Assembly: GCF_000515415.1 (NCBI RefSeq)
Contig: NZ_KI911783.1
Span: 1,230,392-1,294,391 of the forward strand
From: Bradyrhizobium sp. WSM1417
Lineage (GTDB): Bacteria; Pseudomonadota; Alphaproteobacteria; Rhizobiales; Xanthobacteraceae
Direction: 5' to 3'
DNA: 64,000 nt
Shown piece after piece: positions 23,731 through 56,522 of the stretch (its first letter is position 1; the number at the start of each line of letters is the position of its first letter). Both the position numbers and the translations under genes were made by a program. The notes under the pieces were generated by a model that searched no databases, was not told where the DNA came from, and worked only from the letters and a program-made list of their open reading frames with translations.

Positions 23731-25458
23731 CTATCCCCGCGCCATCGCCCGCTTGGCCACCGCCAACCCCATCAGCACGAACGCCGACGTGACCTCCGGA
23801 CCGCCGACCAAAATCCGCGTCGGCGTCTTCATCTTGTTCCATTCATAGGCGCGGAACGGGCCGCGGCGGCCGCCTTCGCCGAGGCTCGCGACGATCACGT
23901 TCAGCGCCGGCGCAAAGGCGCGCGGGTCGGCGCCGAGATGGCCAAGCGCCATCAGGGCGAGCGCTGCGTCGAACACGTTCATCTCGGCGGCCATCAGCTC
24001 GCCCTTGACGTAGGAGAGCACGCGGTGGCGGATGAAATCGAAATCGCCGTCGGGATCGATGATCGCCTGCGCCGCCAGCGGCAGCGCCAGGAAGGCGGCG
24101 TAGCAGCGGCCGAAATAGGCGCTGTAGAGCTCCGGCAAATAGTAGATGTGCGAGCGCGGATTGGCGAAGGCGCCGCTCGCCGCCAGCCGCTTCTGGAAGC
24201 CGATGATGCGATGGACGGTGGCAAGCCGCGCCGGCGTCTCCAATACTTTCCAGCGGGTGAGGTTGCGGAAGCTGACCTCGAGAATATCGAGATTGAGGGT
24301 CGGATCGAGATCGTTGCCATAGGGCCGCTCGCCCTTGAGGTTGTCGATCCAGGTCGCAACCCCGCCCTCGTAGTCGATATTGTCGTTGATCGGCACGGTC
24401 ACGCGCGGCTCGTTGATGCCGGCGCGCACCTGATAGCATGCGTAGAAATCCAGCAGCGGCTGGTCGAGGATCGGATCGGTGCAGCCGGCTTGCATCGCCG
24501 CGGAGACCGAGCACGCCGTGGTGTCGCAATCCGGCACGTAGACGCCGAAACCGAGGTCCTGCTTGATCTGGGCGAAGTAGCGCGAGAAGCGCGGATGCGG
24601 CGCCGGCGCGAGCGCGGTGATGACGTTGAACCGCGCGCCGTCGATGCCCTCGACCTCTTCGCGGCTGATGTTGACGCAGAAATCGACCATGTCGGCAATT
24701 GCGCGCTCCGCCGCCGTCTTGTCGGCGAGCGAGGCCAGCCCGGTCTCGACGTAGCTCAACAGCGCCTCGATGAAGAACGCGTCGTAATAGGCCGAGCGGT
24801 GGCGGATCTGCACCGGCTCCCACATCGGTTCGGCAATCCCTCGCCAGGGCGGATTGACGACGGCGCGCGCCGGTGATCGCGCGATGAAGACACGGGCGAG
24901 GTTGAACAGCAGCGACGAGTTCTTGTAGCCGCGCGCGTTGAGACCCGTGAGCGCCATGGTCAGCTCGCGGCCGCGGAAATCGGGATCGCCGATCAGGTTG
25001 AACGCGGCGTAGGTCGGCAGAAAACCATTTTTGCGGTACGAGCCCAGCAGATGCTGCGCGCAGTCGCGGATCACGCCGTCGATCTGCGATTGTTGCGGCA
25101 TCGCGCCGGTGAACGTGGCCGGCGGCGGCCTGGGATGGTCCAGCGCGATGCTGTCGACGAGATCGGCGACAGGCTGGCCGACCGCCGCCCAATCGGGCTC
25201 GGCCTCGTCGCGGGCGCGCACCAGCGCCTGGCGCAGCCGGGCCAGTTTCCCCTCGTCGCGCAGCTCGGGCAGTCCGGCCCGGCGCAGCAGCACCCGCAAC
25301 GCGGGATTGCCGAGCGCGGTCTTGTAGAACTTGGCCAGATGCGGATCGCCGCTGGCCGCAACAGACAGTACGGGATCGCAGACGTCGTAAAGCGAGGGGC
25401 CGTCCTTCCGCGCCGTCAGCGCCCGGCAGGCGGCGCCCGCAAAATATTGAAAGCTCAT
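23731..25458 (-). CDS. Unrecognised 575-aa protein with a DxDTTA motif
   Basis: A 575-residue soluble-looking protein rich in helices, with no signal peptide after the chosen ATG at 25458 (MSFQYFAGAACRALTARK). It contains VPDCDTTACSVSAAMQAG (Asp310-Ala315), which resembles the DxDDTA acid motif of class II terpene cyclases with the fourth Asp replaced by Thr. Other blocks such as DYEGGVATWIDN and HIYYLPELYSAYFGR would suit an alpha-alpha toroid fold. I do not assign a function. The open frame extends to 25653, but that part is low quality and contains a CRP-like site (25573-25588) that I take to be regulatory. It is a single gene. Confidence 0.7.
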   Translation of the reverse strand: MSFQYFAGAACRALTARKDGPSLYDVCDPVLSVAASGDPHLAKFYKTALGNPALRVLLRRAGLPELRDEGKLARLRQALVRARDEAEPDWAAVGQPVADLVDSIALDHPRPPPATFTGAMPQQSQIDGVIRDCAQHLLGSYRKNGFLPTYAAFNLIGDPDFRGRELTMALTGLNARGYKNSSLLFNLARVFIARSPARAVVNPPWRGIAEPMWEPVQIRHRSAYYDAFFIEALLSYVETGLASLADKTAAERAIADMVDFCVNISREEVEGIDGARFNVITALAPAPHPRFSRYFAQIKQDLGFGVYVPDCDTTACSVSAAMQAGCTDPILDQPLLDFYACYQVRAGINEPRVTVPINDNIDYEGGVATWIDNLKGERPYGNDLDPTLNLDILEVSFRNLTRWKVLETPARLATVHRIIGFQKRLAASGAFANPRSHIYYLPELYSAYFGRCYAAFLALPLAAQAIIDPDGDFDFIRHRVLSYVKGELMAAEMNVFDAALALMALGHLGADPRAFAPALNVIVASLGEGGRRGPFRAYEWNKMKTPTRILVGGPEVTSAFVLMGLAVAKRAMARG

Positions 25459-25886
25459 GAAATACCTGGTCGCGGGAATTTGGCCGGGGGCGCCGGCCGG
25501 CACGCTCCCAGCCGCGCGCCACCCCCCCTGCAAGTCGTTGAAAAAGCTACCCGGATTCGCAGGAAATACAAATGTGATGACGGTCACAGAAAAAGCCGGC
25601 ACGAAGCCTGCATAATCAGCCTCCGGAAGGCTACGGGGACGCAAAAAAATCACACATTGGGCGGCCCAAATTAATTCATGTCTTCAGAGACTTAGCTCAA
25701 ATTTTCGGCGATCTATTGCGGGGGAGGCGATATCCGGTTAAGGGTTTGTTTGGTGCGGCGCCGCAAATTGCGCGCAATTCGGGGGCACACCCCCGGCCAA
25801 TCCCTCAAACCCAAAGACGCTATCGCGCTACTCAAACAGTGTGCGCGTGCTTGGCTGGTCTTTGGCACTGACAGGAATGACGCGAG
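25459..25886. other. Intergenic region, 428 bp
   Basis: This is the divergent space between the 575-aa gene (minus) and the first caspase-like gene (plus). It is AT-richer than the rest of the window, especially 25560-25720, with runs such as CAAAAAAATCACACATT. It contains a perfect TGTGA-N6-TCACA site. Apart from that I see no gene or repeat. It probably holds both promoters. Confidence 0.6.
25573..25588. promoter_or_regulatory. CRP-type binding site TGTGA-N6-TCACA
   Basis: TGTGATGACGGTCACA has both half-sites identical to the classical CRP consensus with 6-bp spacing. It lies 115 bp upstream of the 575-aa gene and about 300 bp upstream of the first caspase-like gene. A Crp-like regulator with a CRP-type recognition helix is encoded at 49075-49749. 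Confidence 0.6.
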
Positions 25887-26735
25887 ATGAATGTAACGCA
25901 GCTCGACATTTCCCGACGCACGATCGCGGTGGCCGCAGCCCTCATCGGCACGGTCTCGCTCGTGATCGGCGCCCATGCTGCCCTCAACATGCGGGCGCTC
26001 GATGCCGCCAAGGCCGTTTCGACCGACCAGGTCACCGGCTCGATCGGCCAGGCCTCGCGTCTTGCCCTCGTCATCGGCAATGGACATTACCCCGACGCCA
26101 GCGCGCCGCTGACGCAGTCGATCAACGACGCCCGCGCGCTGTCCTCGTCGCTGCGCAAGAACGGTTTTGACGTCGACATGGTGGAAGACGCGACCAAGGA
26201 CGACATGGTCCGTGCCGTCAATCGCCTGAAGTCCCGGATCAAGCGCGACACCGTCGTCATGCTGTTCTTCGGCGGCTACGGCGTGCAGGCCGGCCGCGAG
26301 AGCTACATGCTGCCGGTCGATGCCGTGATCTGGAAGGAAAGCGATGTCCGCCGTCACGGCGTCTCCATCGAGGGCGTGCTCGACATGATGAAGGAGCAGG
26401 GCGCCAAGGCCAAGCTCGTCGTGGTCGACGCCTCCCGCCGCAATCCCTATGAGCGCCGCTTCCGCTCCTACAGCCACGGCCTCGCGCCGATCAGCGCGAC
26501 CGACAATGCGCTGATCCTCTCCTCGGCTTCGCCCGGCAAGGTCGTCGACGACGGCAAGGGCGAGCACAGCGTGCTGGTCAGCGAGTTCCTCAACAACCTC
26601 AATGCGCAGGGCAGCGCCGAAAGCGTCTTCAACAAGACCCGCCTTGCCATCTCCCGCGCCAGCGAAGGCGATCAGGTCCCGACCGTCTCCTCCTCGCTGC
26701 TCGAGGACGTCCATTTCGGCGAAGCCGGCGGCTAG
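25887..26735 (+). CDS. Caspase-like protein lacking both catalytic residues
   Basis: A 282-residue protein with an N-terminal membrane anchor (TIAVAAALIGTVSLVIGAHAAL) and a peptidase C14-type caspase fold. The fold markers are clear: RLALVIGNGHYPDASAPL, NDARALSSSLRKNGFDV, LPVDAVIW. In active caspases the dyad is His in SGHG and Cys in DACR. Here the blocks read FFGGYGVQ (Tyr131) and VVDASRRNP (Ser183), so both catalytic positions are replaced. It is therefore probably a binding or scaffold pseudoenzyme. A paralogue with the same pattern is at 55017-56522. It converges with an RND-type adaptor gene whose own paralogue is also near that second copy. Confidence 0.85.
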   Translation: MNVTQLDISRRTIAVAAALIGTVSLVIGAHAALNMRALDAAKAVSTDQVTGSIGQASRLALVIGNGHYPDASAPLTQSINDARALSSSLRKNGFDVDMVEDATKDDMVRAVNRLKSRIKRDTVVMLFFGGYGVQAGRESYMLPVDAVIWKESDVRRHGVSIEGVLDMMKEQGAKAKLVVVDASRRNPYERRFRSYSHGLAPISATDNALILSSASPGKVVDDGKGEHSVLVSEFLNNLNAQGSAESVFNKTRLAISRASEGDQVPTVSSSLLEDVHFGEAGG

Positions 26736-26914: not shown

Positions 26915-27802
26915 TTACTTTGCCGCTTCCGTAGCCATCACCGTGCGCACCGGATCGCCTTCGCGCAGAAGCGCGCCGGCGCGGGCGACGACGATATCGC
27001 CTTCGTTGAGGCCGTCGCGGATCTCGATATTGCCGCCCGACATCAGTCCGACCTCGACCCGCTTGGTCTCGACGCGGTTGCGGCGGATCACCTGCACGAC
27101 GGTGCCGGCGGAGGAATACTGCACCGATGTCAGCGGCACCGCGACGTTGCAGCTCTGCCCGGACTTGATCAGCGCGCGGCCGCTCGCATTCAGCAACAGC
27201 CGCTTCTGCGAGGAGATGCCGATATAGACCATGCCCTGCTGGATGTTCGGCTCGACCGTCGGGCCGATGCGGCGCACCTTGCCGTCGATGTCGCCGGCGC
27301 CGGCGATGCGCACCGTCGCGACCTGGTTGACCGCGAGCTTGCGCATATCGCTGGTCGCGACCAGGGCGACGAGATCGTACTCGCTGCGCGCCACGATCGT
27401 GAACAGCGCCTCGCCCTTGGCGGAGGCGAGATTACCGATCTGCGCTGTCGACGTTGCGATCACGCCTGCGACGGGGGCGGTGACCTGAAGCGTGCCGCCC
27501 TCGGGCAGTGCGAGCCGCGCCAGCACCTGGCCGGCGGTGGTGGTGTCGCCGGCTTCCGCCAGCACCTCCGTCACCTTCAGGCCGGGCCGCTCCGGCCGCA
27601 CCGAGCTTGCCTCGCGCGCAAGGATGGTGCCGGTGCCCTCGACGATGTCGGAGAAACAGGATTTTGCGACCTTCAGCACCGTGACCGCCGGCCCCTTGGG
27701 CGCGTCGTCATCGGCGGCGGCAGCGGGCTGTGCGGACAGCAACAGCAGTCCGGCGAGCGCAACGAGATGTCTGGAAACAGAACGCGCAGGCAATGAACGC
27801 AT
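26915..27802 (-). CDS. Orphan RND/HlyD-type periplasmic adaptor
   Basis: A 295-residue exported protein with signal peptide (LVALAGLLLLSAQPAAAA). The lipoyl/barrel-sandwich halves are LKVTEVLAEAGDTTTAGQVLARL and LQVTAPVAGVIATS, followed by a beta-barrel domain and a membrane-proximal domain (IEIRDGLNEGDIVVARAGALL). Adaptors bridge RND pumps to outer-membrane channels, but no pump or channel gene is adjacent. Its only cysteines are Cys49 (SCFSD) and Cys218 (QSCNVAVP), matched in the adaptor at 53103-54032. It may serve a pump encoded elsewhere, perhaps that at 49954. It lacks the long coiled-coil hairpin of typical adaptors. Confidence 0.85.
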   Translation of the reverse strand: MRSLPARSVSRHLVALAGLLLLSAQPAAAADDDAPKGPAVTVLKVAKSCFSDIVEGTGTILAREASSVRPERPGLKVTEVLAEAGDTTTAGQVLARLALPEGGTLQVTAPVAGVIATSTAQIGNLASAKGEALFTIVARSEYDLVALVATSDMRKLAVNQVATVRIAGAGDIDGKVRRIGPTVEPNIQQGMVYIGISSQKRLLLNASGRALIKSGQSCNVAVPLTSVQYSSAGTVVQVIRRNRVETKRVEVGLMSGGNIEIRDGLNEGDIVVARAGALLREGDPVRTVMATEAAK

Positions 27803-44043: not shown

Positions 44044-46491
44044 CTACCCTCTTCGCCTTGCCGCGGCGGCATCCACCACGTTCTCCACCTCCTCGCGCCA
44101 CGACAGGATCTCCATCGCGAGCACGGGGTGGTTGAAGCCCTTGAGCACGAGATCGTCGAGCGCGCGGGCTTCGACCCAGGGCTCGACCATGCCGTAGACG
44201 CGGCGGCTGACGACGACCTGGCCGGCCTTGGCTTCGTCGCAGAGGCGGGAGGAAAGATTGGTGACGCTGCCGATCGCGGCATATTCGAGCCGCTGCTCGA
44301 AGCCGATCTGGCCGAGCGTGGCGTAGCCCATGGCGACGCCGACACCGAAGCCGAGCGAGTGGCCGCGGTTCTTCCACTTCTCGGTCAATTGGCCAATCAC
44401 ATCGCGCATCTCGACCGCCATCTTCACCGCGCGCTTGGTGTGGTCGGCAAATTGAATCGGCGCGTTGAACAGGATCATCACGCCATCGCCGGCAAAGCGA
44501 TCGAGCGTGCCTTCATAGCGGTGGATCAGCTCGCCGAGCGCGGCGTGATATTCGCGCAGCACATTCATTGCCTCTTCAGGCTCGGTCGCCTCCGTAAACG
44601 AGGTGAAGCCGCGCAAATCGCAGAACACGACGGTGACCTCGCGGCGATGGCTGTCGAGCAGCGCGTCGTGGCCGTCGGACGAGGCGATCAGCTGCGCCAC
44701 TTGCGGCGCGAGGAAACGTTCGAGCCGCTTGATGCGGCCGATCTCGCCGAGTTGTTTCTCGACGCGCTCTTCAAGCGAGCGATTCCAGTTGCGCAGCTGT
44801 TCGGTCTGCTCCTGGAGCTTGGCGGCCTGCTGCTGCACGGTTTGGTGCGCAGCCGCGAGCTCGCGGCCCTTGTGGTCGACCTCGGTGAACAGCCGCGCAT
44901 TGCGCATCGCCAGCACGGCCTGGTTGGCAAAGGTGCGCATCAGGCCGATGATGCTGGCGGCGAACTCGCCGCTGGCGCGGCGCAGCACGACCAGCGAGCC
45001 GAGCGTGCCCTGCTGGTCCACCAGCGGCACCACCAGCACCGAATGGAAGCCGGCCTCGATCGCGACATCGCGCAGCGGCTGCTCGGAAGCCTGGTCGAGA
45101 TCGGCAATCGCGATCGGCTCGCCGCTCCCGGCCGCATCGCTCAGGATATCCTGGCCTTCGTCGATCGTGACATGGGCGCCGTCGGCGGATTTGTCGATCC
45201 CGTTGGCCTCGACCAGATTGAAGCGGCGCACCTGCGCGTCATAGCCGTAGATCAGCACGGCGTCGGCATGGGTGATCTCGATCGCGCGCGCGGCGATCGT
45301 TGGCAGCACGGCGTTGAGATCGAGCGAGGCTGCGACCGCGCGGCCGACCTCTTCCAGCACCTTGAGCTCGTTGATCGACTGCGCGAGATCGCGGGTGCGC
45401 TCCTCGACCTTGGTCTCCAGGTCCGAATAGGTCTCCTGGATCTGGTCGGCCATGCGGTTGAACTGGCCGGCGAGATCTTCCAGCTCGTCGGCGGTGTGCA
45501 CCTCGATGCGATGGCTGAAATCGCCCTCGCCGAGCTTGTGCGCGCCGTCGCGTAGCGCCGTGATCGGGATGATCATGCGGCGCGCCAGAAGCGTGCCGGC
45601 GAGGATCGCGACCAGCAGGCCCATGCCGATCAAAAGCGCAATGCGCACCAGCTGGTCGCGGATCGGCATCAGGGCCTGCGTGGTCGGCTGCTCGAACATC
45701 ACGCTCCAGCCGAGCTTCGGCACAATGCTGGCGGCGCTCATCACTGCATGGCCGTTGAAGTCGGTGCCCGAACTGTCGGGCTCGTGGCCCGGCGCGACCG
45801 CAGCCGCGACCTGCGGCAGCTTCGACAAATCCTTGCCGACCTCGGGGCCCTTCGACGACGTCGCCAGCACGCGGCCGCGCGGATCGACCACATAGGCGAA
45901 GGCAGCCTTGCCGACCTGGGCGTCGGAGAGGTACTCGGAGAGAAAGCTGAGGTCGAGTTCGGCCACTGTGACGCCGGCGTTGAAACCGGAATGCGCCACC
46001 GAGATCGACATGAACGGCGTTCGGTCGGAGAACCAGGCCGGCGCATAGCTGACGCCGCGGGCGACGGTGTCGGTGAAGCGCATGTCGCGGGAGAGGTCGG
46101 CGTTGCTGCCGGTCGTGGTCGACTGGCGCGAGACGCGCAGCACCTCGCGGCCGTCGCCGTTGAGCTGAAACAGCTGAGTGACGACCGCGACCTGGTGCAG
46201 CAGCTGGGCGTAGTCGGCGCGGCGCTTCTCGAGCGTGTCCTGGCTCGCCCGCGTCACCCAGCTGATCTGGCGTTCGAGCTCGGAGATCGACTGCTCGATC
46301 CGCCGCGCGGCAGCCTGCGCCTTGTCCTCGAGACCGTCGGTCAGCTGTGTCTTGGTGGCGCGGTAGGAGATCCAGCTCTCCATCGCGCCGTTGACGGCGA
46401 GCACGAACACGACGAGGCCGACGAGAGAGACGACGTATTTGGCGAACAGACCCTCGCGCAGAAACCGTGTCTTGTCGTTCGCTCCTGCCAT
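44044..46491 (-). CDS. Class III adenylate/guanylate cyclase with Cache, HAMP and GAF domains
   Basis: An 815-residue membrane enzyme. Helix one is near residues 19-37; a periplasmic Cache-like sensor follows; helix two (LIGMGLLVAILAGTLLARR) leads into HAMP, a coiled segment, GAF, a second coiled segment, then the cyclase domain. Catalytic metal Asp residues are in VVFCDLRGFTSF and FAGDGVMI, and NLSSRL has the transition-state Arg. It converts ATP (or GTP) to the cyclic nucleotide on sensing an outside signal. A Crp-like regulator is encoded 2.6 kb away. The GAF domain may bind a small ligand. Confidence 0.92.
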   Translation of the reverse strand: MAGANDKTRFLREGLFAKYVVSLVGLVVFVLAVNGAMESWISYRATKTQLTDGLEDKAQAAARRIEQSISELERQISWVTRASQDTLEKRRADYAQLLHQVAVVTQLFQLNGDGREVLRVSRQSTTTGSNADLSRDMRFTDTVARGVSYAPAWFSDRTPFMSISVAHSGFNAGVTVAELDLSFLSEYLSDAQVGKAAFAYVVDPRGRVLATSSKGPEVGKDLSKLPQVAAAVAPGHEPDSSGTDFNGHAVMSAASIVPKLGWSVMFEQPTTQALMPIRDQLVRIALLIGMGLLVAILAGTLLARRMIIPITALRDGAHKLGEGDFSHRIEVHTADELEDLAGQFNRMADQIQETYSDLETKVEERTRDLAQSINELKVLEEVGRAVAASLDLNAVLPTIAARAIEITHADAVLIYGYDAQVRRFNLVEANGIDKSADGAHVTIDEGQDILSDAAGSGEPIAIADLDQASEQPLRDVAIEAGFHSVLVVPLVDQQGTLGSLVVLRRASGEFAASIIGLMRTFANQAVLAMRNARLFTEVDHKGRELAAAHQTVQQQAAKLQEQTEQLRNWNRSLEERVEKQLGEIGRIKRLERFLAPQVAQLIASSDGHDALLDSHRREVTVVFCDLRGFTSFTEATEPEEAMNVLREYHAALGELIHRYEGTLDRFAGDGVMILFNAPIQFADHTKRAVKMAVEMRDVIGQLTEKWKNRGHSLGFGVGVAMGYATLGQIGFEQRLEYAAIGSVTNLSSRLCDEAKAGQVVVSRRVYGMVEPWVEARALDDLVLKGFNHPVLAMEILSWREEVENVVDAAAARRRG

Positions 46492-46760
46492 CCCGATCCT
46501 CTCGCGCCGCCATCGGCGCCGGCGCTACGGGCCTGACGGACCCTGCGAGCCTTCTAGCACAATTTAGTCCAACGGACTGTGAAGGGGCTGGTCGGGCCGC
46601 CTGACCGGCCGGTGTGGTTACCCGCCTGGACGCTGGGCAGGCGGAAGCATGGTGAATTGTCGCAGTCTCATCCCTTTGGAGGAAGCCGCCGCCGGGCCAG
46701 CCGATGTAAGGGGATGGCTTGGCAAGGGAGGGCTGGGAGTCCAGCGCTTTGGTCCTGCAA

Positions 46761-48839
46761 TCATCGATTAAAGAGCTGCCGCAGCACGTCGTTCATCGGC
46801 TGGCTGTCCTGCTGCGCCGCCGGCGGGTCCTCCAGGCCGGGGGACGCCGGCGAAGCTTGCGGCATCAGTGTGGATGGCGCTGCAGGCAGGCTGCGGCTGC
46901 GGCCGGTGGCTGTGCCTGTGCCGGTGGCAGTCCCAGTGCCGTTTCCCGCGCCACCGGAAAGTCCCTGCTGGATCAGATTGCCGATCGCCTCGCCCAAGGG
47001 GCCGCCGAGCGGGTTGTTCTGTCCGGGCTGCTGGGTTTGCGGATTGGCATTGCCGGTCGCATTGCCGCCACCCGGCGCGGCGGTCCCTCCGAGACCAAGG
47101 CTACCCAGAATATTGCCGAGCCCGGCCCCATCAGCGCCGAACAGCCCCTTGCCCATCTCGCGCAGCTTGGCATAGGCGGCGTCCGGATTGTCCAGCATGC
47201 CGGCCATGTCAGGATAGATCCGCGGCTGCGACCAGGTACCCTGGATCATCACGGGGATGCCGAAGCCGACCGGCTCGGCGGCGCGGCCCTGGCCTTCGGT
47301 CGTCATCACCAGCTTCGGCTCGACGCGAAAGCCCATCATCTTGGTGTCGAGTGCGATCGTGCCGGCGCCGGTCACGCGGACCAGCGGTCCGGTCAGGTTG
47401 AGATCGGTCGTCACCGCCTGGCCCTTGTCGATCCGGAACGACGCCGAGAGCTGCGACAAATCCGTGCTCTGCTCCCGACCGTTGTCCTGGTTTGCCTGCC
47501 AGCCCGACAGCGTGCCCGATGTCAGCGAGCGGATCATCTGTGCGACGTTGATGCCGCGAATGGCGCCGTCCTGGAAATTGACGAAGGCCGTGCCCTGCAT
47601 GTTCGCCATCAATGCGCGCTGGCTGGTGCCGGCGCTGCGCAGCGCAAGCTTGGCCTGCAGCTTGCCGTCGATCCGGTCGAATTCGGCGAGGCCTTGGAGC
47701 AGCGGCAGCGCGCGCACGCCGGCGAGGTCGGAATGCATCGCAAAGCTCGGCGCGCCGCTGGTCGCATCCAGGATCAATTCGCCCGAGACCTGGCCGCCAT
47801 AGGCGCCGAGATTGGCGGTGCCGGCCTTCAGCACGCCGCCGGCGAGTTTTGCATCGACCGCCAGCGGCGCGAGACGCGCATCGCCGATCACCGCCTCGTG
47901 CGCGGAGATCCTGATTTGCGCATCGACATAGTTGAGCGCGGACACGTCGATCGGCGCATCGCTCCAGGGTTGCCCGGACGCGCCTTCCGGCGATTTCGCC
48001 AGCGGAATCGCGAGCCGCTGGAAGTCGAGATCGACCTTGACCAGAGGCTTGCTCGCGATATCGACCGAGGCCCAGCCGTTGAACGCGCCATCGCCGAGCG
48101 TGCCGCTCACGCCGTTGATCATCACGACATCGCCGCTCAGCCGCATCTCGGCATGACCCGCGAGCCGGGACTTCAACACGTCCGGCATGTCGATGGCGAA
48201 ATCCACCGGAATGGTCGGTCGGTCGGCCGGCGGCGCCGGCGTGGTCGCCTTGATGTCGAACTTGGTCGGATGCTCGCCGACCCGTGCGGTGCCGGTGATG
48301 CTGATCTTGCGGTCGCGGCTGACGATCGCATCGGCATTGACGGCGCTGATGCGGCTCTCGACTCGATCGCGCACGCGCGCGAATGCGATCTCGCCATCGG
48401 TGACCTTGATGCGGTCGATGGCGGCGCCATCGGTATCGAGCGCGACCGGCTTCGACGTGCCGCCGGCATTCGGCAGTCGCTCACGCAGCAGCGGCTGGTA
48501 GAGCACGGGATGGGTGACGACGAGCTCGCTGATCTTCGGACGGCCCGACCAGACGCTCGAGAGCGACATGTCGGCCTGCACGCTGTCGATGGTCAGGCGC
48601 GTGATGCCGCTGCGGTCCTTGGGGTCGGCAAGCGTGAGGTCGTTCAGCGTCACGTTCAGCGTCGGCCACAGGCTGATTCTGATGGTGCCGTCGATCGACA
48701 AGCGATAGCCGGTCGCGCTCTCGACCCGCGAGGCAATCGTCGACGTCAGGAAGCCCGAGGGGATCCCGACCACCAGCAGGAGTGCGATCACGATGACGAT
48801 TGCGGCCACCGCCGCGCCGGCGAATTTCACGGCTCTCAT
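46761..48839 (-). CDS. AsmA-family envelope protein
   Basis: A 692-residue protein with one N-terminal membrane helix (VAAIVIVIALLLVVGIP) and a long periplasmic part of the AsmA/TamB-related type, recognisable by repeated short beta blocks such as IRISLWPTLNVTLNDLTLAD near the start. The last ~100 residues are low complexity, rich in Gly, Asn, Thr and Pro. AsmA proteins take part in lipid transport or outer-membrane assembly. I chose ATG 48839 with GGAAAG upstream; a GTG 42 bases earlier would lengthen it by 14 residues. Confidence 0.85.
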   Translation of the reverse strand: MRAVKFAGAAVAAIVIVIALLLVVGIPSGFLTSTIASRVESATGYRLSIDGTIRISLWPTLNVTLNDLTLADPKDRSGITRLTIDSVQADMSLSSVWSGRPKISELVVTHPVLYQPLLRERLPNAGGTSKPVALDTDGAAIDRIKVTDGEIAFARVRDRVESRISAVNADAIVSRDRKISITGTARVGEHPTKFDIKATTPAPPADRPTIPVDFAIDMPDVLKSRLAGHAEMRLSGDVVMINGVSGTLGDGAFNGWASVDIASKPLVKVDLDFQRLAIPLAKSPEGASGQPWSDAPIDVSALNYVDAQIRISAHEAVIGDARLAPLAVDAKLAGGVLKAGTANLGAYGGQVSGELILDATSGAPSFAMHSDLAGVRALPLLQGLAEFDRIDGKLQAKLALRSAGTSQRALMANMQGTAFVNFQDGAIRGINVAQMIRSLTSGTLSGWQANQDNGREQSTDLSQLSASFRIDKGQAVTTDLNLTGPLVRVTGAGTIALDTKMMGFRVEPKLVMTTEGQGRAAEPVGFGIPVMIQGTWSQPRIYPDMAGMLDNPDAAYAKLREMGKGLFGADGAGLGNILGSLGLGGTAAPGGGNATGNANPQTQQPGQNNPLGGPLGEAIGNLIQQGLSGGAGNGTGTATGTGTATGRSRSLPAAPSTLMPQASPASPGLEDPPAAQQDSQPMNDVLRQLFNR

Positions 48840-48979
48840 GTCGACTTTCCAGCGGCGAGCGATGGGCGTCGAATCCGGCACATGACCGTCATTTCCACCC
48901 GTCCTTTGCGCCTGAGTTTATCCCGGGACGGGAAGCGGCTCCAAGCACGTAAAAATAGTCTGGGGGTGCTGCAAAGTTA

Positions 48980-48995
48980 TGTGACTTATGGCACA
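48980..48995. promoter_or_regulatory. CRP-type site in front of the Crp-like gene
   Basis: TGTGACTTATGGCACA differs from TGTGA-N6-TCACA by one base in the second half-site. It is 80 bp upstream of the Crp-like start codon at 49075, which is a usual position for autoregulation. The assignment relies on symmetry and position. Confidence 0.45.
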
Positions 48996-49074
48996 CTTCC
49001 CCGGCGCGGTTTTACGCGATCCTGATGTTGATGGTTCCAAGCGATTTGCCAACGAAATTCACAAGGACATTGAA

Positions 49075-49749
49075 ATGAGCAAGCAGGCCGAATTTGCGGT
49101 CATCCTCAAGATGAATGCGATGTTCGCCGATCTCGGCGCAGACGAGCTCCAGCGGCTGGCGAATCTCTGCCACACCCAGCATCTGGGCAACGGCGAGGTG
49201 CTGTTCCAGAAGGGCGACGCGGGCGATGCGCTGTTCGGCGTCCGCCGAGGCCAGGTCCGTATCGAGACCGGCGCCTCCGACGGCAGCCGCCTGACGCTGA
49301 ACTTCATGGGGCCGGGCGACCTGTTCGGCGAGGTTGCGGTGCTGGACGGCCAGAGCCGCACTGCGGACGCCACCGCGGGCGAAGCCAGCGAGCTGTTCGT
49401 CTTGCGGCGCGAAGACTTTCTCGCCTTCCTCGAACGCGAGCCGAAGGTCGGGATCAAGATCATCGCGCTGCTGTGCCAGCGCATCCGCTGGCAGAGCGAG
49501 CGCATGGAAGAGTCCATGCTCCAGCCGCTGCCGGTTCGCCTCGCGCGGCGCCTTTGCGCGCTCGCCGCCGATTTCGGTTCGGAGGTGCACATCTCGCAGG
49601 AGCAGCTCGGCGTCTTCGTCGGCGCCGCTCGCGAGAGCGTCAACCGCCAGCTTCAGGCCTGGCGCAAGGAAGCCATCCTCGATCTCCAGCGCGGCCGCAT
49701 CCTGCTGCGGAACATGACTAAGCTGACGGCGATCGCGCGGAACGAGTAG
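49075..49749 (+). CDS. Crp/Fnr-family transcriptional regulator with CRP-type recognition helix
   Basis: A 224-residue regulator. The cyclic-nucleotide-binding fold has the phosphate cassette FGEVAVLDGQSRTADA, with Gly-Glu and Arg-Thr-Ala in the places used to hold cAMP. The C-terminal winged HTH has GAARESVNRQLQAW, giving RExVxR, the same key residues as E. coli CRP (Arg180, Glu181, Arg185) rather than the ExxSR of FNR. No FNR-type iron-sulfur cysteine cluster is seen. I chose ATG 49075 (AAGGA upstream); the frame is open back to 48988. Predicted targets carry TGTGA-N6-TCACA, and three such sites occur in this window. Confidence 0.9.
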   Translation: MSKQAEFAVILKMNAMFADLGADELQRLANLCHTQHLGNGEVLFQKGDAGDALFGVRRGQVRIETGASDGSRLTLNFMGPGDLFGEVAVLDGQSRTADATAGEASELFVLRREDFLAFLEREPKVGIKIIALLCQRIRWQSERMEESMLQPLPVRLARRLCALAADFGSEVHISQEQLGVFVGAARESVNRQLQAWRKEAILDLQRGRILLRNMTKLTAIARNE

Positions 49750-49953: not shown

Positions 49954-52900
49954 CTACTCCGCCGCCGGGTGCACGATGCTCCTCGGCGCTGGTGCCGCTC
50001 CCGCCGGCGCAGCTTCGTGGTGACCGGCGCCCTCGGCATCTTCGCTGTGCACGACCAGCCGCTTGGCGAAGCGCCAGATCAGGGCGCCGAGATCGTCCAT
50101 CACCATGAACATCGCGGGCACGAACACCAGCGACAGGATGGTCGAGAAGATCAGGCCGCCGATCACCGCGAGTGCCATCGGCGAGCGGAACTCGCCACCC
50201 GCGCCGACCGCGAGCGCGCTTGGCATCATGCCCGCGGCCATCGCGATCGTGGTCATCACGATCGGGCGCGCGCGTTTCATGCCTGCGTCGATCATGGCTT
50301 CCTCGCGCGGTGTGCCGGCGTGAATGGACTCGATGGCGAATTCCACCAGCATGATCGCGTTCTTGGTGACGATGCCCATCAGCATCAGGATGCCGATCCA
50401 CACCGGCGTCGTGAGCTGCTTGCCGGTGACCAGCAGGGCCGCGATCGCGCCGCCGATCGAGAGCGGCAACGAGAACAGAATGGTGATCGGCTGCAGGAAG
50501 GTGCCGAACAGCAGCACCAGCACGGCGTAGACCATCATCAGGCCCGCCGTGATCGCGGTAGCAAAGCCTTCGGACAGTTCGTTCAGGCTTTCGGCATCGC
50601 CGGAGGGTGAGACCTTCACGCCCTTCGGCCGGCTCTTCATGACCGGCAGGTCGTAGATCTTCTTGGTGGCGTCGCCGAGCGCGGCGGAGCCGACAAGATC
50701 GGCCGCGACGGTCGCCTGTCGCTCGCGATCGTAACGGTTGATGCTGGTCGGACCTTGGTCGAGCTTGACGTCGGCGATGACGGAGAGCGGCACGCCGCCC
50801 TTCTCGCCGTGCTCGCCGAGCGGCACGCGCAACTGTTCGAGTGTCTTCAGATTGCCACGCGCGGCATCCTCGAGCTGCACGCGGATCGGCACCAGACGGT
50901 CGCCGACGTCGAACTTGGCGAGCGCGGGGCCGACGTCGCCGATGGTGGCGACGCGGATGGTCTGCGACAGGCTTTCGGTCGACACGCCGAGCCGTGCGGC
51001 GAGATCGGCGCGCGGTTCGACGCGCAGCTCGGGCCGCTCCAGCGTGGTTTCCGAGATCACGTTGGAGATGGTGGGAATCCGCTTCATCTGCGTCGCGAGC
51101 TCGCTGGCGACGTTGTTGACGATGTTGGCGTCTGCGCCGGTCACGACCAGCGAGATGGCGCGCAGGCCGTTCTCGTCGAGGAACCAGAAGCGGATGTCCG
51201 GGATGTTCTCCAGCTCCTGGCTGATCGAGAATTCGAGCTCGCGCTGGGTGATGTCGCGGCTGTCCTTTGGCGTGTAGTTGATGATCAAAGCGGCGCGCCG
51301 GACTTCCTGGGTCCCCGGTGGAACGCGGCCGCCGTCGACGAAGATGCTCTTCACCTCGGGCCGCTTGCGCAGGCGCGCAACGATGTCTTCGGTGACCTTT
51401 TCGGTGTAGGCGAGCTGGGTGCCCGGCGGCAGCTCGAGGGCAACCAGCGAGCGCGAGCTGTCCTGCGCCGGCAGGAAACCCTGCGGCAGCAGCGTGATGC
51501 TCCAGATCGAAGCGGCGAAGACGCCGAAGCCGGCCAGCACCGTGATGAAATAGTGCTTCACCGACCAGGCCACGAGCCTGTGATAGGACCGCAGCACGCG
51601 GCCGGGCGGTGGCTCCTGGTGATTGCCATGTTTGAGGAAGTAGGCGGCGAGCACCGGCGTGACGAAGCGCGCAGCGAGCAACGAAAAGAACACCTGCACC
51701 GAGACGGTGATGCCGAACTGCTTGAAGAACTGTCCGGCGATGCCCGACATGAAGCTCGCGGGTGCGAAGATCGCGATGATCGTCAGCGAGATGGCGATCA
51801 CCGCGAGGCCGATCTCGTCGGCGGCTTCCAGGGCGGCACGATAGGGCGACTTGCCCATGTTCATGTGCCTGACGATGTTCTCGATCTCGACGATGGCGTC
51901 GTCGACCAGAATACCTGTCGACAGCGTGATGGCGAGGAAACTGACGAGGTTGAGCGAGAAGCCGAGCAGGTCCATCGCCCAGAACGCCGGGAAGATCGAC
52001 AACGGCAGCGAGATCGCGGCGATGATGGTGGCGCGCAGGTCGCGCAGGAACAACAGCACGATGACGACGGCGAGGATGGCGCCTTCGAACAGGGTCGAGA
52101 TTGCCGCGTGGTAATTGCCGTTGGTATATTCGACCGAGGTGTCGATCACCTTCAGGTCTACGTCGGGATAGGTAGCCTTGAGCGTGTCGATGCGCTTCTG
52201 CACGGCCTCGGCGACCTTCACGTCGCTGGCACCCTTTGAGCGCTTGATGCCGAGCGCGACGATCGGCTCGCCGTTGAAGCGGGCGAAGGTGCGGCGGTCG
52301 GCGATGGTGTCGGTCACGGTGCCGAGATCGTCGAGCCGGACCTCGCCGCCGCCGAACAGCGGAATCATGGTGCCGGCAAGGTCACTCAGCGTCTTGGCGC
52401 CAGCGAGGGTGCGGATCGCCTGGTCGTTCTTGCCGATCTCGGCGCGGCCGCCGGCAACATCGACATTGGTGCCGCGCAGGCTCTGGCTGACATTGACGGC
52501 CGTCAGCCCCATCGACTGCAGGCGGTCGGGATCGAGCGAGACCAGGATCTCGCGCTCGACACCGCCGATGCGCTCGACCTGGGCGACGCCGCGCACGCCC
52601 TGCAGCGCCCGCTTGACCACGTCGTCGACGAAATAGGAGAGCTGCTCCGGCGTCTTGCCGGGCGAGATCGCGGCGTAGGTGACGATCGGCAGGCCGATGA
52701 CGTCGACGCGCTGGATCAGGGGCTCGGTGACGTTCTGCGGCAGGTTGGAGCGCACGCGCGTCACCGCGTCCTTGACGTCGTTGAGCGCGCGGTCGGTGTT
52801 GGTTTCCAGCGCGAACTGGATCGTCGTCACCGACAGGCCGTCGGTGATCTGCGAGGTGATGTGCCTGACGCCTTCGACACCGGAGACGGCGTCTTCAACC

Positions 52901-53103
52901 GTCTTGGTGACCTGGGATTCGAGCTCGGCGGGTGCCGCGCCGAACTGCGACACCGCGACCGAGATCACGGGAATGTCGGCCGAGGGTAGCCGCGTCACCG
53001 CGAGCTTGGTGAAGGACACCCAGCCGAGGATCAGGAGGATGATGGAAAAAACGACCGACGGCAGCGGATTGCGAATCGACCATGCCGAGATATTGAGAGC
53101 CAT
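49954..53103 (-). CDS. RND-family efflux pump permease
   Basis: A 1049-residue inner-membrane transporter with the two-fold HAE1/AcrB layout: helix one (LPSVVFSIILLILGWVSF), a large porter loop, six helices, a second loop and the final helices. The proton-relay Asp pair is in GILVDDAIVEIENI, and MGIVTKNAIMLVEFAIES is the second conserved block. It exports hydrophobic compounds or metals by proton antiport. The adaptor gene directly upstream overlaps its start (ATGA). No outer-membrane channel gene is nearby, so a TolC-like channel is probably shared. The substrate is unknown. Confidence 0.94.
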   Translation of the reverse strand: MALNISAWSIRNPLPSVVFSIILLILGWVSFTKLAVTRLPSADIPVISVAVSQFGAAPAELESQVTKTVEDAVSGVEGVRHITSQITDGLSVTTIQFALETNTDRALNDVKDAVTRVRSNLPQNVTEPLIQRVDVIGLPIVTYAAISPGKTPEQLSYFVDDVVKRALQGVRGVAQVERIGGVEREILVSLDPDRLQSMGLTAVNVSQSLRGTNVDVAGGRAEIGKNDQAIRTLAGAKTLSDLAGTMIPLFGGGEVRLDDLGTVTDTIADRRTFARFNGEPIVALGIKRSKGASDVKVAEAVQKRIDTLKATYPDVDLKVIDTSVEYTNGNYHAAISTLFEGAILAVVIVLLFLRDLRATIIAAISLPLSIFPAFWAMDLLGFSLNLVSFLAITLSTGILVDDAIVEIENIVRHMNMGKSPYRAALEAADEIGLAVIAISLTIIAIFAPASFMSGIAGQFFKQFGITVSVQVFFSLLAARFVTPVLAAYFLKHGNHQEPPPGRVLRSYHRLVAWSVKHYFITVLAGFGVFAASIWSITLLPQGFLPAQDSSRSLVALELPPGTQLAYTEKVTEDIVARLRKRPEVKSIFVDGGRVPPGTQEVRRAALIINYTPKDSRDITQRELEFSISQELENIPDIRFWFLDENGLRAISLVVTGADANIVNNVASELATQMKRIPTISNVISETTLERPELRVEPRADLAARLGVSTESLSQTIRVATIGDVGPALAKFDVGDRLVPIRVQLEDAARGNLKTLEQLRVPLGEHGEKGGVPLSVIADVKLDQGPTSINRYDRERQATVAADLVGSAALGDATKKIYDLPVMKSRPKGVKVSPSGDAESLNELSEGFATAITAGLMMVYAVLVLLFGTFLQPITILFSLPLSIGGAIAALLVTGKQLTTPVWIGILMLMGIVTKNAIMLVEFAIESIHAGTPREEAMIDAGMKRARPIVMTTIAMAAGMMPSALAVGAGGEFRSPMALAVIGGLIFSTILSLVFVPAMFMVMDDLGALIWRFAKRLVVHSEDAEGAGHHEAAPAGAAPAPRSIVHPAAE

Positions 53104-54032
53104 CAGCGTACCCGCGTGCGATCGAGTTCATCGGCGAACATGGTCTTGATCTGGTCGCCGTCATGCAGCGAAGAGCCGGCGTCGGCGACGACGATTTCGC
53201 CGACGTTGAGGCCTTCCAGGATTTCCGTCGCGCTGTCCGACGACAGCCCGACCCGTACCTTGCGCGTCTCGACAATGTTGCCCTTGACGACCTGCACGGT
53301 GAGATGGTCGATCGCGGTCTTGGGAACCGCGACGCCGCAGCTTCGCTTGGCGTCGATCGAGGCGCGGGCGAACACGCCGACTTTCAGCGAGGGATTGTTG
53401 GTGACACTGATGCGCACGCGGCCGAGCTGGGTGGCGCGATCGATTTCGGGCGCGACCAGCCTGACCCGGCCGATCAGATCGGGCGCGTCGTCGCGGCTGA
53501 TGCGAACGGTCGCGCCGGAGCTGAGCTTGGCCATGTGCACTGCGGGCACCTGCGCGTCCAGCTCGATCTCGTTGTTGACGGCGATACGGAACATCGGGCC
53601 AGCCTGCGGCGAGGCCGGCGCGCCGACGATGGTGCGGACCTCGGTGACGAGCCCCGGCGCAGAGGCCTTCAGCGAAACCGGACCTTGCGGGCCGGGCCGC
53701 TGCGGCTGGCCCGGGATCTGGGGCGGTGCGGTCAGGCGCGCCAACTCCTGATTGTCGGTGACGAGGGTGCCCTCGGTGACGAAGAGGTCGGTGACCCTGG
53801 ATCCCTCTTGGTCAGCGACGACCACGGCTTCGCGGCGCGGCACGAAGAAGCCGGTCACCCGGACCAGGTCGGAGAAGCAGGCGTTGGTCGACTTGGTCAC
53901 GATGACCAGCGCCTCGCTCGGCGTTTCCTTGGGCTCGGCGCGATGCCGGTGCTCGAATAGATAATAGCCGACGCCGAGCGCGACGACGAAGACCACCGTT
54001 CCGGCCGGCTTGAGATATTGGGAGAGGTTCAT
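53103..54032 (-). CDS. RND efflux periplasmic adaptor
   Basis: A 309-residue membrane-anchored adaptor (helix GTVVFVVALGVGYYLF). Lipoyl-type blocks and the distal IEILEGLNVGE-like region (TEILEGLNVGEIVVADAGSSL) are clear. Its stop overlaps the start of the pump gene, so it is the pump's partner. Its two cysteines, Cys52 (ACFSDLV) and Cys232 (RSCGVAVP), match those of the orphan adaptor at 26915-27802; a disulfide is possible. A Pro/Gly-rich insert (IPGQPQRPGPQGP) replaces the usual coiled coil. I chose ATG 54032, not the longer frame to 54116. Confidence 0.9.
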   Translation of the reverse strand: MNLSQYLKPAGTVVFVVALGVGYYLFEHRHRAEPKETPSEALVIVTKSTNACFSDLVRVTGFFVPRREAVVVADQEGSRVTDLFVTEGTLVTDNQELARLTAPPQIPGQPQRPGPQGPVSLKASAPGLVTEVRTIVGAPASPQAGPMFRIAVNNEIELDAQVPAVHMAKLSSGATVRISRDDAPDLIGRVRLVAPEIDRATQLGRVRISVTNNPSLKVGVFARASIDAKRSCGVAVPKTAIDHLTVQVVKGNIVETRKVRVGLSSDSATEILEGLNVGEIVVADAGSSLHDGDQIKTMFADELDRTRVR

Positions 54033-54190
54033 TGCCGGATCGTCCTGGCCTGGCTCACGGCCATCCGCGCGCGGCCCATGGAGAGCGTTTTCCTGAAATA
54101 AAGCAGCGTCCCGCAAGCCTGCGGGACGCGCGGTGGAAGCGAGACTTTACACCACATCACGACTTGTCACTTCAAAGGATTACGTCGTGC

Positions 54191-54862
54191 TCACTTCGAT
54201 GCGGTGGTCTTGTTTTCCATGTTGACGACCTGCACGCGACGGTTGACCTCTGCCATCGGCTGGGCGGGGTCCTTCAGCTTGCTCTTGCCGTAGCCGACCG
54301 TGACGAGGTCGGTCGCGGAGATGCTGTATTTGTCGACCAAATAGCGCTTGATCGAATCCGCGCGGCGCTCCGACAGATCCTGATTATAGCTCTCGCCGCC
54401 GGCGGCGTCAGTGTGGCCGGCGACCACGAAGGTCGAGCCCTTCAGGTCGGGGCTGGTCAGCGCACGGCCGAGCGCCTGGACCGAGGCAAGCGATTTGGCG
54501 CTGATATTGGCCGAGTTGTAGTCGAACGTGATTTCCAGATCGATGTTCGGCTTGTCCTTGGCCGCCGACGCGATTTCTTCACGTTCGGTCGACGACAGCG
54601 AGCGTGTCGAGCGGCCGCGCACGGACTGGATCAGCTTGGTCTCCGTCGCACTCGGTGCGGGATCGGCCTGCGGAGCGATCGAGAGGCCGCGGGTCAGCGG
54701 CTTCTTCGGCGGCGGCGCCAGCGCGCGGACGATCTCGTCCTCGGTGACGTTCTTGCTGTTGCCGTCGTCGCCGGCGAATGCCAGCGGGATCGTCAGCGAC
54801 AGTGCGGCGCCGACGGTGATGATGGACAGGATTGCGGTAAGTCCCTTTGCAGCCAATCTCAT
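54191..54862 (-). CDS. OmpA-family peptidoglycan-binding protein
   Basis: A 223-residue exported protein. The signal or anchor is AILSIITVGAALSLTIPLAFA. A disordered, Pro-rich middle leads to an OmpA C-terminal domain with VVAGHTDAAGG, NQDLSERRADSIKRYLV and YGKSKL, which binds peptidoglycan. GGAGGG is upstream of the ATG. It lies between the pump adaptor gene and the caspase-like gene, on the same strand with gaps of 154-158 bp, so it may belong with either. Confidence 0.9.
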   Translation of the reverse strand: MRLAAKGLTAILSIITVGAALSLTIPLAFAGDDGNSKNVTEDEIVRALAPPPKKPLTRGLSIAPQADPAPSATETKLIQSVRGRSTRSLSSTEREEIASAAKDKPNIDLEITFDYNSANISAKSLASVQALGRALTSPDLKGSTFVVAGHTDAAGGESYNQDLSERRADSIKRYLVDKYSISATDLVTVGYGKSKLKDPAQPMAEVNRRVQVVNMENKTTASK

Positions 54863-55016
54863 AGCCAGTCCCTCCTGCGCAGCCAGCTCGCGTAGTTCCA
54901 AAATCCTGCAGTAAGCCGCCCCGAAAAGGCGGGCGCGGCATCCGTTCAATTAGTCAATTAGTCTTCGCCGGGCCGCCGCGGGTTCGAGGCACATCGGCCC
55001 CGATCCAAAAAAAATA

Positions 55017-56522
55017 TCAACGCACTCCGTAGCTTGCGAATTCCTGAACAATGTTCGGGTCCATCGCCTTGGCATTGGCGATGTCGAGCGCGCCTTCCTG
55101 GGCCGAGCCGTTGCGCTGCTTGGCGATCCCGCGTCCGAACAGCGAGGAGGTCAGGCGCGGATTGATCCTCAGGGCGGCCTCGAAATCGGCGATGGCGTTC
55201 TTGACCGCCCCCGATTTCAGATTGACCAACCCCCGGCTGTCCAGCGCGTCGACGAAGTTCGGCCGCAGCCGCAGGGCCTCGTTGCAGTCCTTCAGCGCGC
55301 CCTGGAGGTCGCCGACCACGGTGCGGGTCCAGCAGCGGTTGTTCAGAGCCTCGACGTCCTTGGGGTTGATCCGAAGCGTCTCGTCAAAATCCTTGATGGC
55401 CAAGCTGTAGGCGCCCTTGCTGGCATAGACCTGACCGCGCCGGTAAAGCGCGTTCACGTCATCCGGATTAGCCGCGATCTTGGCGGTCAGCCCCTTGATG
55501 GTGGGGTCCTCGGCGAGGGCGGCCGCACTCGGCCCGCTCTCCATGCTCGGAGCGGTCGCGGGATCGGCCGGAATCACAGGCGGAGGCGGCGGCGGTGCGG
55601 GCGGCAAGGCAGCCTCGACCTGCGGCTTCGGTGACGGAGCGGGCGCGGCCACCGTGTCGGCCGGTTTCGGCGGCGGAGGCGGTGAAGGTGCGGGCGGAGC
55701 CGGCGGCGGGTTGTTGGCGACGACCGGCGGCGGCGCGGGTGGCGGGGTCGTTGTCGGGCGCGACCCGCCGGCCCCTGGAATGAACGAGAAATCCTCGGCC
55801 AGTGAAGAGGATATCCACGGCACCTGCTCGCCCCGGGAGGCACGGGTGACGCCCATCTTGGTGCGGTTCAGCGTCTCCTCGGCCATCAGGTCGGGGACGC
55901 GGATTTCCTTGAGGAGTTCCTGGACGAACAGGCTGTGCTCGCCGCCGGCGTCCGAAACTACCGAGGCCAACGCCGCCGAATACATCACCAGCGTGCCGTT
56001 CGGCGCGATGACGGGGGTGAGGCCGGCCGAGAAGCTGCGGAACCGGCGCTCGAACGGATTGCGCCTGGAGGCGTCGACCAGCGCGATCTTGACGCCGGCG
56101 CCGCGGGTGTTGAGCTCGCCGAGCACGGTTTCGAGGCTGATTCCGTCGCGGCGCACGTCGGATTCGGTCCAGATCTGCGCATCGATGGGCAGCAAATAGC
56201 TCTGCCGCGCGGACTGGATGCCGAAGCCGCTGAAGAACACCAGTGCCACCGACCCCGGCTTGATCTTGCCGTAGAGCTTGTCGAAGGCGCGGCGCATGCC
56301 GTCGCCAGTCAGGTTCTCACCGGTTTCCACGGAAAAGCCGTCGCGCTTGAGCTCGTCGGCGACGTCGCGCGCGTCGTTGAGCGGTTCCTTCAGGGGAGCG
56401 TCGGCGTCCGGATATTTGGCGTTGCCGATCACAAGCGCAAAGCGATCGCCGGCCGCAATCGACGGAGCGGTCGGGATGAGCGACACGAGCAAGGACAGAA
56501 CGAAAAGCAGGCGAATTTTCAT
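55017..56522 (-). CDS. Exported caspase-like pseudoenzyme fused to TPR repeats
   Basis: A 501-residue protein: signal peptide (LLFVLSLLVSLIPTAPSIAA), caspase fold (about 25-240), a long Pro/Ala linker (about 250-335), then TPR repeats to the end (AALYRR-like NALYRRGQVYASKGAY, VEALNNRCWTRTVVGD). The fold shows RFALVIGNAKYPDADAPL and LPIDAQIW. The catalytic blocks read FFSGFGIQ (Phe100 for His) and LVDASRRNP (Ser152 for Cys), so proteolysis is very unlikely. It probably binds a partner through the TPRs. Both it and the copy at 25887 share the ERRFRS-x-S block after the second site. Confidence 0.9.
   Translation of the reverse strand: MKIRLLFVLSLLVSLIPTAPSIAAGDRFALVIGNAKYPDADAPLKEPLNDARDVADELKRDGFSVETGENLTGDGMRRAFDKLYGKIKPGSVALVFFSGFGIQSARQSYLLPIDAQIWTESDVRRDGISLETVLGELNTRGAGVKIALVDASRRNPFERRFRSFSAGLTPVIAPNGTLVMYSAALASVVSDAGGEHSLFVQELLKEIRVPDLMAEETLNRTKMGVTRASRGEQVPWISSSLAEDFSFIPGAGGSRPTTTPPPAPPPVVANNPPPAPPAPSPPPPPKPADTVAAPAPSPKPQVEAALPPAPPPPPPVIPADPATAPSMESGPSAAALAEDPTIKGLTAKIAANPDDVNALYRRGQVYASKGAYSLAIKDFDETLRINPKDVEALNNRCWTRTVVGDLQGALKDCNEALRLRPNFVDALDSRGLVNLKSGAVKNAIADFEAALRINPRLTSSLFGRGIAKQRNGSAQEGALDIANAKAMDPNIVQEFASYGVR

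Follow-up and report, generated by a model that had tools for sequence, protein, structure and literature searches.

What could a caspase-fold protein do once both residues of its catalytic dyad have been replaced? The question was raised by a gene near the end of the window, the whole stretch of 64,000 nucleotides from Bradyrhizobium sp. WSM1417 that was analysed here (Table 1). Pfam detected in its product a single Peptidase_C14 stretch (residues 27–245, E = 3.8e-35), a caspase p20-type domain, followed by TPR families whose best stretches lay from residue 357 onward (TPR_1, E = 6.7e-20). A preliminary description had read the motifs FFSGFG and DASRRNP, a Pro/Ala linker and TPRs from the sequence, and the ORF, Pfam and alignment confirmed all of them. 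With Phe100 and Ser152 substituting the His-Cys dyad the protein is a pseudo-orthocaspase, and the C-terminal TPRs place it in the FS type. The FS pair in place of His/Cys suggests that it is non-proteolytic; the MALT1 paracaspase differs in having a His/Cys dyad and in cutting. The signal-like N-terminus points to a protein of the exported type. Its sole cysteines, C397 and C413, were both within the TPR region, and each was kept in 50 of 54 alignment rows (three of the other four were gaps). A periplasmic scaffold, as proposed in the preliminary description, is a plausible suggestion in view of the signal-like N-terminus, the envelope-type neighbours and the two conserved TPR cysteines.

Table 1. 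Features of the pseudocaspase locus and of the sister locus in the window.
Feature	Position	Strand	Basis
TPR-fused pseudo-orthocaspase, 501 aa	55017..56522	-	ORF with ATG start; Pfam; fold; clade
Signal-peptide-like N-terminus, residues ~1–24, ending ...PSIAA	56451..56522	-	read from sequence; median dN/dS 0.335, residues 1–25
Caspase-fold domain, residues 22–250	55773..56459	-	
Phe100 codon, former catalytic His position	56223..56225	-	motif FFSGFG
Ser152 codon, former catalytic Cys position	56067..56069	-	motif DASRRNP
Pro/Ala-rich linker, residues ~251–339, predicted disordered	55506..55772	-	pLDDT mostly <50 over 251–330
TPR region, residues ~340–501	55020..55505	-	Pfam; structure
OmpA-like protein, likely start at internal ATG near 54865	54191..54949	-	PF00691, E = 7.1e-21
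Terminator-like hairpin between OmpA-like and adaptor genes	54106..54129	-	scan; kept in Bradyrhizobium loci
RND periplasmic adaptor (MFP), likely start near 54032	53103..54116	-	HlyD_D23; RND_mfp; phyletic match
RND permease	49954..53103	-	ACR_tran, 760.8 bits; VDDAI and TKNAI motifs; linkage
Crp-type regulator	48988..49749	+	Pfam
AsmA-family protein	46761..48881	-	Pfam
Cache/HAMP/GAF/cyclase protein	44044..46491	-	Pfam
Second RND adaptor (MFP), adjoining sister gene	26915..27802	-	RND_mfp, E = 9.3e-30, above cut-off; conserved neighbour
Sister pseudo-orthocaspase without TPRs, 282 aa, Tyr131/Ser183	25887..26735	+	Pfam; alignment; trees
640-aa protein of unknown family, divergent neighbour of sister gene	23731..25653	-	conserved neighbour

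The sister protein (Peptidase_C14, E = 9.6e-38) was 48% identical to the TPR-fused protein over 240 residues and 50% over the domain, and the two were mutual best matches in a comparison of 21 caspase homologues from the host genome (next best 36 and 32%). Its Tyr131 and Ser183 occupied the same two alignment columns as Phe100 and Ser152. The same two positions were thus altered in both genes, as had been claimed, but the residue at the first was Phe in one and Tyr in the other. The predicted structure of the sister protein had a mean pLDDT of 46.9 and was left unused. The 640-aa protein, which had no match in Pfam, NCBIfam or, up to E = 10, the PDB sequences, was beside the sister gene in many loci and near YA relatives in three (L079–L081); here and below the two letters give the residues at the former His and Cys positions. 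The host genome contained 26 Peptidase_C14 matches, some of which were fragments of a single gene. By motif, 18 of 21 compared domains kept HC, the exceptions being the TPR-fused gene (FS), the sister gene (YS) and the YA homologue L010 (G000:C1:5197167-5197829). L010 is unlikely to be a third member of the clade described below: it grouped with HC proteins in three trees (99/89, 94/95, and 97/95) and probably lost the dyad separately, but the AU test did not reject its grouping with the pseudo clade (p = 0.18). Another caspase homologue of this genome (L021, G000:C1:705500-709800) looked broken, with motifs in different frames and an internal stop.

Profile or protein searches for relatives covered the family (149 genomes), a second family (60), the order (297), and the class (289). 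Three trees (48, 38, and 36 rows) were computed on the caspase domain after removal of both dyad columns. Near copies (the rows of L056, L066, L077 and one of L064) were left out of the 48-row tree and L010 and L006 were added to it; further rows were thinned for the two smaller trees. All sampled FS, YS, YA, FA, VS, and HA relatives of both genes formed one clade on a long stem with support of 100/100, and among the rows sampled no HC sequence fell inside it. As read from these trees, this indicated a single loss of the catalytic Cys, on the stem of the clade, and an independent Cys loss in the two paralogues was ruled out. Two relatives retained His but had Ala in place of the Cys, so that more than one loss of His is possible; across 36 pseudo rows the His position held Tyr in 18, Phe in 14, His in 2 and Val in 2, and in the 38-row tree it required 12 changes within the clade. 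Thus, the independent origin of the two substitutions, which the preliminary description had set against an ancient family, did not apply to the Cys and perhaps did to the His. The HC relatives from the class search that stood closest to the clade partly shared the NPFERRFR stretch.

Four partial matches were left out of the dyad alignment, and the matches of the 149-genome search were read for the dyad in part: 29 loci among L025–L054 gave 25 FS and 4 YS. Complete domains were obtained from 73 of 80 named Bradyrhizobium loci (72 FS and 1 YS; L187, L188, and L204, missed by the motif pattern, were read separately). In an alignment of 54 rows (49 TPR relatives, the window protein, three short relatives and one tandem relative), position 100 was Phe in 42 and Tyr in 12, and position 152 was Ser in all 54, so the substitution of the two residues is not a matter of chance. 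In L055–L074, the TPR orthologues were FS (10) or YS (7); their short counterparts, whose length leaves no room for TPRs after the caspase domain, were YS (10) or FS (6). From these alignments, each paralogue group has members with Phe and members with Tyr at the drifting His position, and this residue does not mark the paralogue. In contrast, the FS dyad was tied to TPRs when the class with this dyad and TPRs was published from Rhizobiales/Hyphomicrobiales (Klemencic et al., 2019; PMC6426788, available text). That class shares its caspase p20-type domain, Phe-Ser dyad, C-terminal TPRs and order with the protein studied here, and as judged from the orthologues its FS-with-TPR rule fails when taken strictly.

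Selection was estimated for the window gene against up to 78 orthologues, mostly from Bradyrhizobium. The median dN/dS was 0.058 in the caspase domain and 0.067 in the TPRs, compared with 0.165 in the linker (residues 249–340) and 0.335 at the N-terminus (residues 1–25). Decay or a recent pseudogene was ruled out by the caspase-domain value over 78 comparisons. The preliminary description had argued for an ancient, maintained non-proteolytic family rather than decay and had named missing conservation in close relatives as evidence to the contrary; the fully supported clade, free of HC among the rows sampled, the strong purifying selection and the retention in relatives supported this view. Over 57 Bradyrhizobium loci, the whole-gene medians were 0.095 for the pseudocaspase, 0.091 for the adaptor, 0.082 for the pump, and 0.188 for the OmpA-like gene.

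Around the former active site, Asp50 was present in 35 of 36 pseudo rows and Asp150 in 34, the remaining two being Glu. Trp118 and Arg154 were present in all 36 rows and each in 53 of the 54 rows of the larger alignment; at position 154 the 34 HC rows had Asn (26) or Asp (8), and Trp was outside the three commonest HC residues at position 118. The residues Asp95 and Asp211 of TbMC2 take basic residues and are stated to be conserved in pseudo-orthocaspases (PMC6426788, available text). In our reading of the alignment, Asp50 and Asp150 are the likely counterparts of these two, and the pattern is consistent with a putative binding site that was retained and reshaped without cutting.

The OmpA-like, adaptor and permease genes were located downstream of the pseudocaspase on the same strand. 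This neighbourhood was missed by the preliminary description, as was the HC caspase nearby in other genera. The adaptor scored 51 bits with HlyD_D23 (cut-off 30) and 83.9 bits with RND_mfp, under the cut-off of 94.9 (E = 1e-23), and is the periplasmic adaptor of an RND efflux system. The permease, whose closest PDB match was MdtB (E = 2.7e-115), carried VDDAI at 400–404 and TKNAI at 913–917, motifs of the proton-relay type expected of such a permease; we take their residues to be proton-relay residues by their roles in AcrB. A Pfam scan of 19 proteins of the window revealed no outer-membrane channel. HAE-type RND systems (MdtB, MexB, and AcrB) likewise have an adaptor gene directly before the permease gene; unlike in these systems, the pseudocaspase and OmpA-like genes stood alongside in the window.

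The strand and order of the four genes were kept in 57/57 Bradyrhizobium and 12/16 other loci. All 57 fully flanked Bradyrhizobium loci had an RND pump, as did the 16 other loci of TPR type that were counted; the pump was present in 5 of the 20 further pseudo loci (some on short contigs) and in none of 32 control loci. The 16 loci were chosen for their TPR-type gene; L068 and L069, with this gene at the end of the stretch and both showing the pump, were left out, as were L071 and L073, where a short gene alone was found with no pump beside it and far from the TPR gene. The controls comprised 18 host-genome stretches (one of them around L010, another around a gene that looked broken) plus 14 stretches from the order, among them L238, unread for the dyad; L092, among the 20 further loci, gave no complete domain. 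In the second family, the clade was carried by 3 of 60 genomes, plus G338 found in the order search, and the pump was present in 4/4 loci (L205, L206, L260, and L261). Some genera had two pseudocaspases flanking one compact cluster of ~7.4 kb start to start (L055–L057). In the window ~22 kb of other genes separated the two cluster halves, and the genes of 44044..49749 were often between the halves in relatives. Counted by eye, 27 of 41 genomes with both types had them on the same contig within 32 kb, whereas in the other 14 they were distant from each other or on separate contigs.

The clade was carried by 55 of the 149 family genomes at E of 1e-50 or better. A matching adaptor (E of 1e-30 or better) and pump (at least 62% identity, a line set after the table was seen) occurred in 53/55 carriers and 0/94 non-carriers, as counted from genome lists hand-copied from the search tables; a Fisher p for this co-occurrence overstates independence because the genomes share ancestry. 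More distant RND relatives, at most 57% identical, were found in 27 non-carriers. The two carriers without matching adaptor or pump were G072 and G085 (L082, L091, and L092). In G085, a VS relative adjoined an HC caspase and an OmpA-like gene. Genome G074, a carrier through its short gene, kept the adaptor and pump, and its TPR gene was a remnant beside the adaptor, which indicated that the pump can persist without the TPR gene. In the g9 genomes, the YA relative was away from the pump (L079–L081; pump at L263).

The computations showed the fold, the loss of the dyad, membership in one clade, selection, linkage of the genes and co-occurrence with adaptor and pump. From these we tentatively propose that the pseudocaspase is a periplasmic, non-proteolytic, peptide-binding adaptor of the neighbouring RND pump, the likeliest reading in our view, though at somewhat less than an even chance. 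The linkage, the co-occurrence, the kept pocket residues and whole-gene dN/dS values similar to those of adaptor and pump counted for it; that linkage is not interaction counted against it. The protein would be exported and would act in the periplasm on the pump. The acidic pocket of the caspase domain (Asp50 and Asp150) would accept a basic side chain without cutting, the TPRs would serve to hold a partner, and the OmpA-like protein would tether the pseudocaspase to peptidoglycan, with contacts to the OmpA-like protein, the adaptor or the pump and an effect on transport as the expected outcome. More speculatively, and with rather low confidence, a caspase-fold protein without cutting power may be a dedicated accessory of the RND machine, a gate or substrate receptor at the peptidoglycan, which would have arisen from a periplasmic system of active caspase and OmpA-like protein. 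If the pump link is right, the caspase fold would serve as the binding part of an envelope machine; we know of no caspase-fold pump subunit.

The pseudocaspase could instead be an envelope gene that merely shares its locus with the pump and makes no physical contact, which we consider unlikely, although it deserves real weight. At the position of the terminator-like hairpin, a stem of at least 8 with a T-rich tail was found in 49/57 Bradyrhizobium loci; the scan yielded 5 such sites in the region vs. 5.1 expected by chance. The kept hairpin argues against a simple operon, so that the cluster probably comprises two units, pseudocaspase-OmpA and adaptor-pump, and pseudocaspase and pump are perhaps on separate transcripts. 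A wide synteny block including regulators and the AsmA protein, the cases of a missing or distant pump (genomes G072 and G085, loci L071 and L073, the g9 YA relatives, and most of the further pseudo loci) and the pump without an intact TPR gene in G074 point the same way. However, the middle genes were variable, yet pump and adaptor stayed beside the pseudocaspase even in the second family.

A role as regulator of an active caspase homologue, in which the pseudocaspase would pair with, inhibit or activate a periplasmic HC caspase, is a serious rival too, although we consider it unlikely. Such pairing of a pseudoenzyme with an active one is exemplified by cFLIP-L with caspase-8 (PMC6426788, available text). 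Of the 32 pseudo loci examined, 11 had an HC caspase in the stretch that was fetched, a count that omitted L068, L071, L073, L075–L077, L086, L089, and L091–L094 (in L082 and L090 the loose pattern printed QC where the alignment read HC). Some of these neighbours had signal-like N-termini (L060, L064, L065, and L070), and one metagenome protein, P0002, carried an FS and an HC domain in one chain. That fusion was a single sequence, however, those HC neighbours that were placed in the trees were split between two different HC groups, and none of the 73 complete domains in the 80 Bradyrhizobium loci was HC.

A changed enzyme using Ser152 is very improbable, since the Cys position was Ser in 28 of the 36 pseudo rows but Ala in the other 8, and position 100 had no conserved His. 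A part in photosynthesis, a possible tie that is the only role offered for Rhizobiales pseudocaspases in the available text of PMC6426788, is hardly credible here: the family occurred in 15/21 genomes with a Photo_RC match vs. 40/128 without (Fisher p = 0.001, kinship uncorrected), but 40 of the 55 carriers, including the genome of the window, were without such a match. The conserved pump link assigns Rhizobiales pseudocaspases a location and partners that experiments can address, whether or not the genome has reaction-centre genes.

Rhizobiales account for 561 of 582 alphaproteobacterial pseudocaspases (PMC6426788, available text), and the main text of this paper contained none of the terms "operon," "neighbor," "efflux," "OmpA," "synten," and "genomic context." OmpA domains were reported in 14 of 217 predicted operons holding a caspase homologue (Asplund-Samuelsson et al., 2012; PMC3501461); in the available part of that paper on metacaspase-OmpA operons, "efflux" and "HlyD" were absent and pseudo-variants beside an RND pump were unmentioned. 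Among open-licence PMC papers, a search on metacaspase and OmpA operons returned one paper, and none was found, as judged by title or opening of the abstract, on caspase homologues with RND efflux, periplasmic adaptors or Rhizobiales clusters. The single-clade analysis with its drifting His position and the pump link are new here. In Synechocystis, deletion of SyOC led to higher oxidative-stress tolerance (PMC7889975, available text); it is likewise a pseudo-orthocaspase with a knock-out phenotype, but a cyanobacterial one, and is likened here by description only. From the accessible portions of two further papers, a "caspase family protein," bll3611 of B. diazoefficiens, is listed in work on the NnrR regulon (PMC6710368), and B. 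japonicum has an RND pump named ExsFGH (PMC10760861).

Two proteins contained two caspase domains, P0001 in an FS-FS and P0002 in an FS-HC arrangement. The YA relative at L085:5472-7133 had a C-terminus that was non-TPR in the alignment and which, we presume, resembles FGE-sulfatase.
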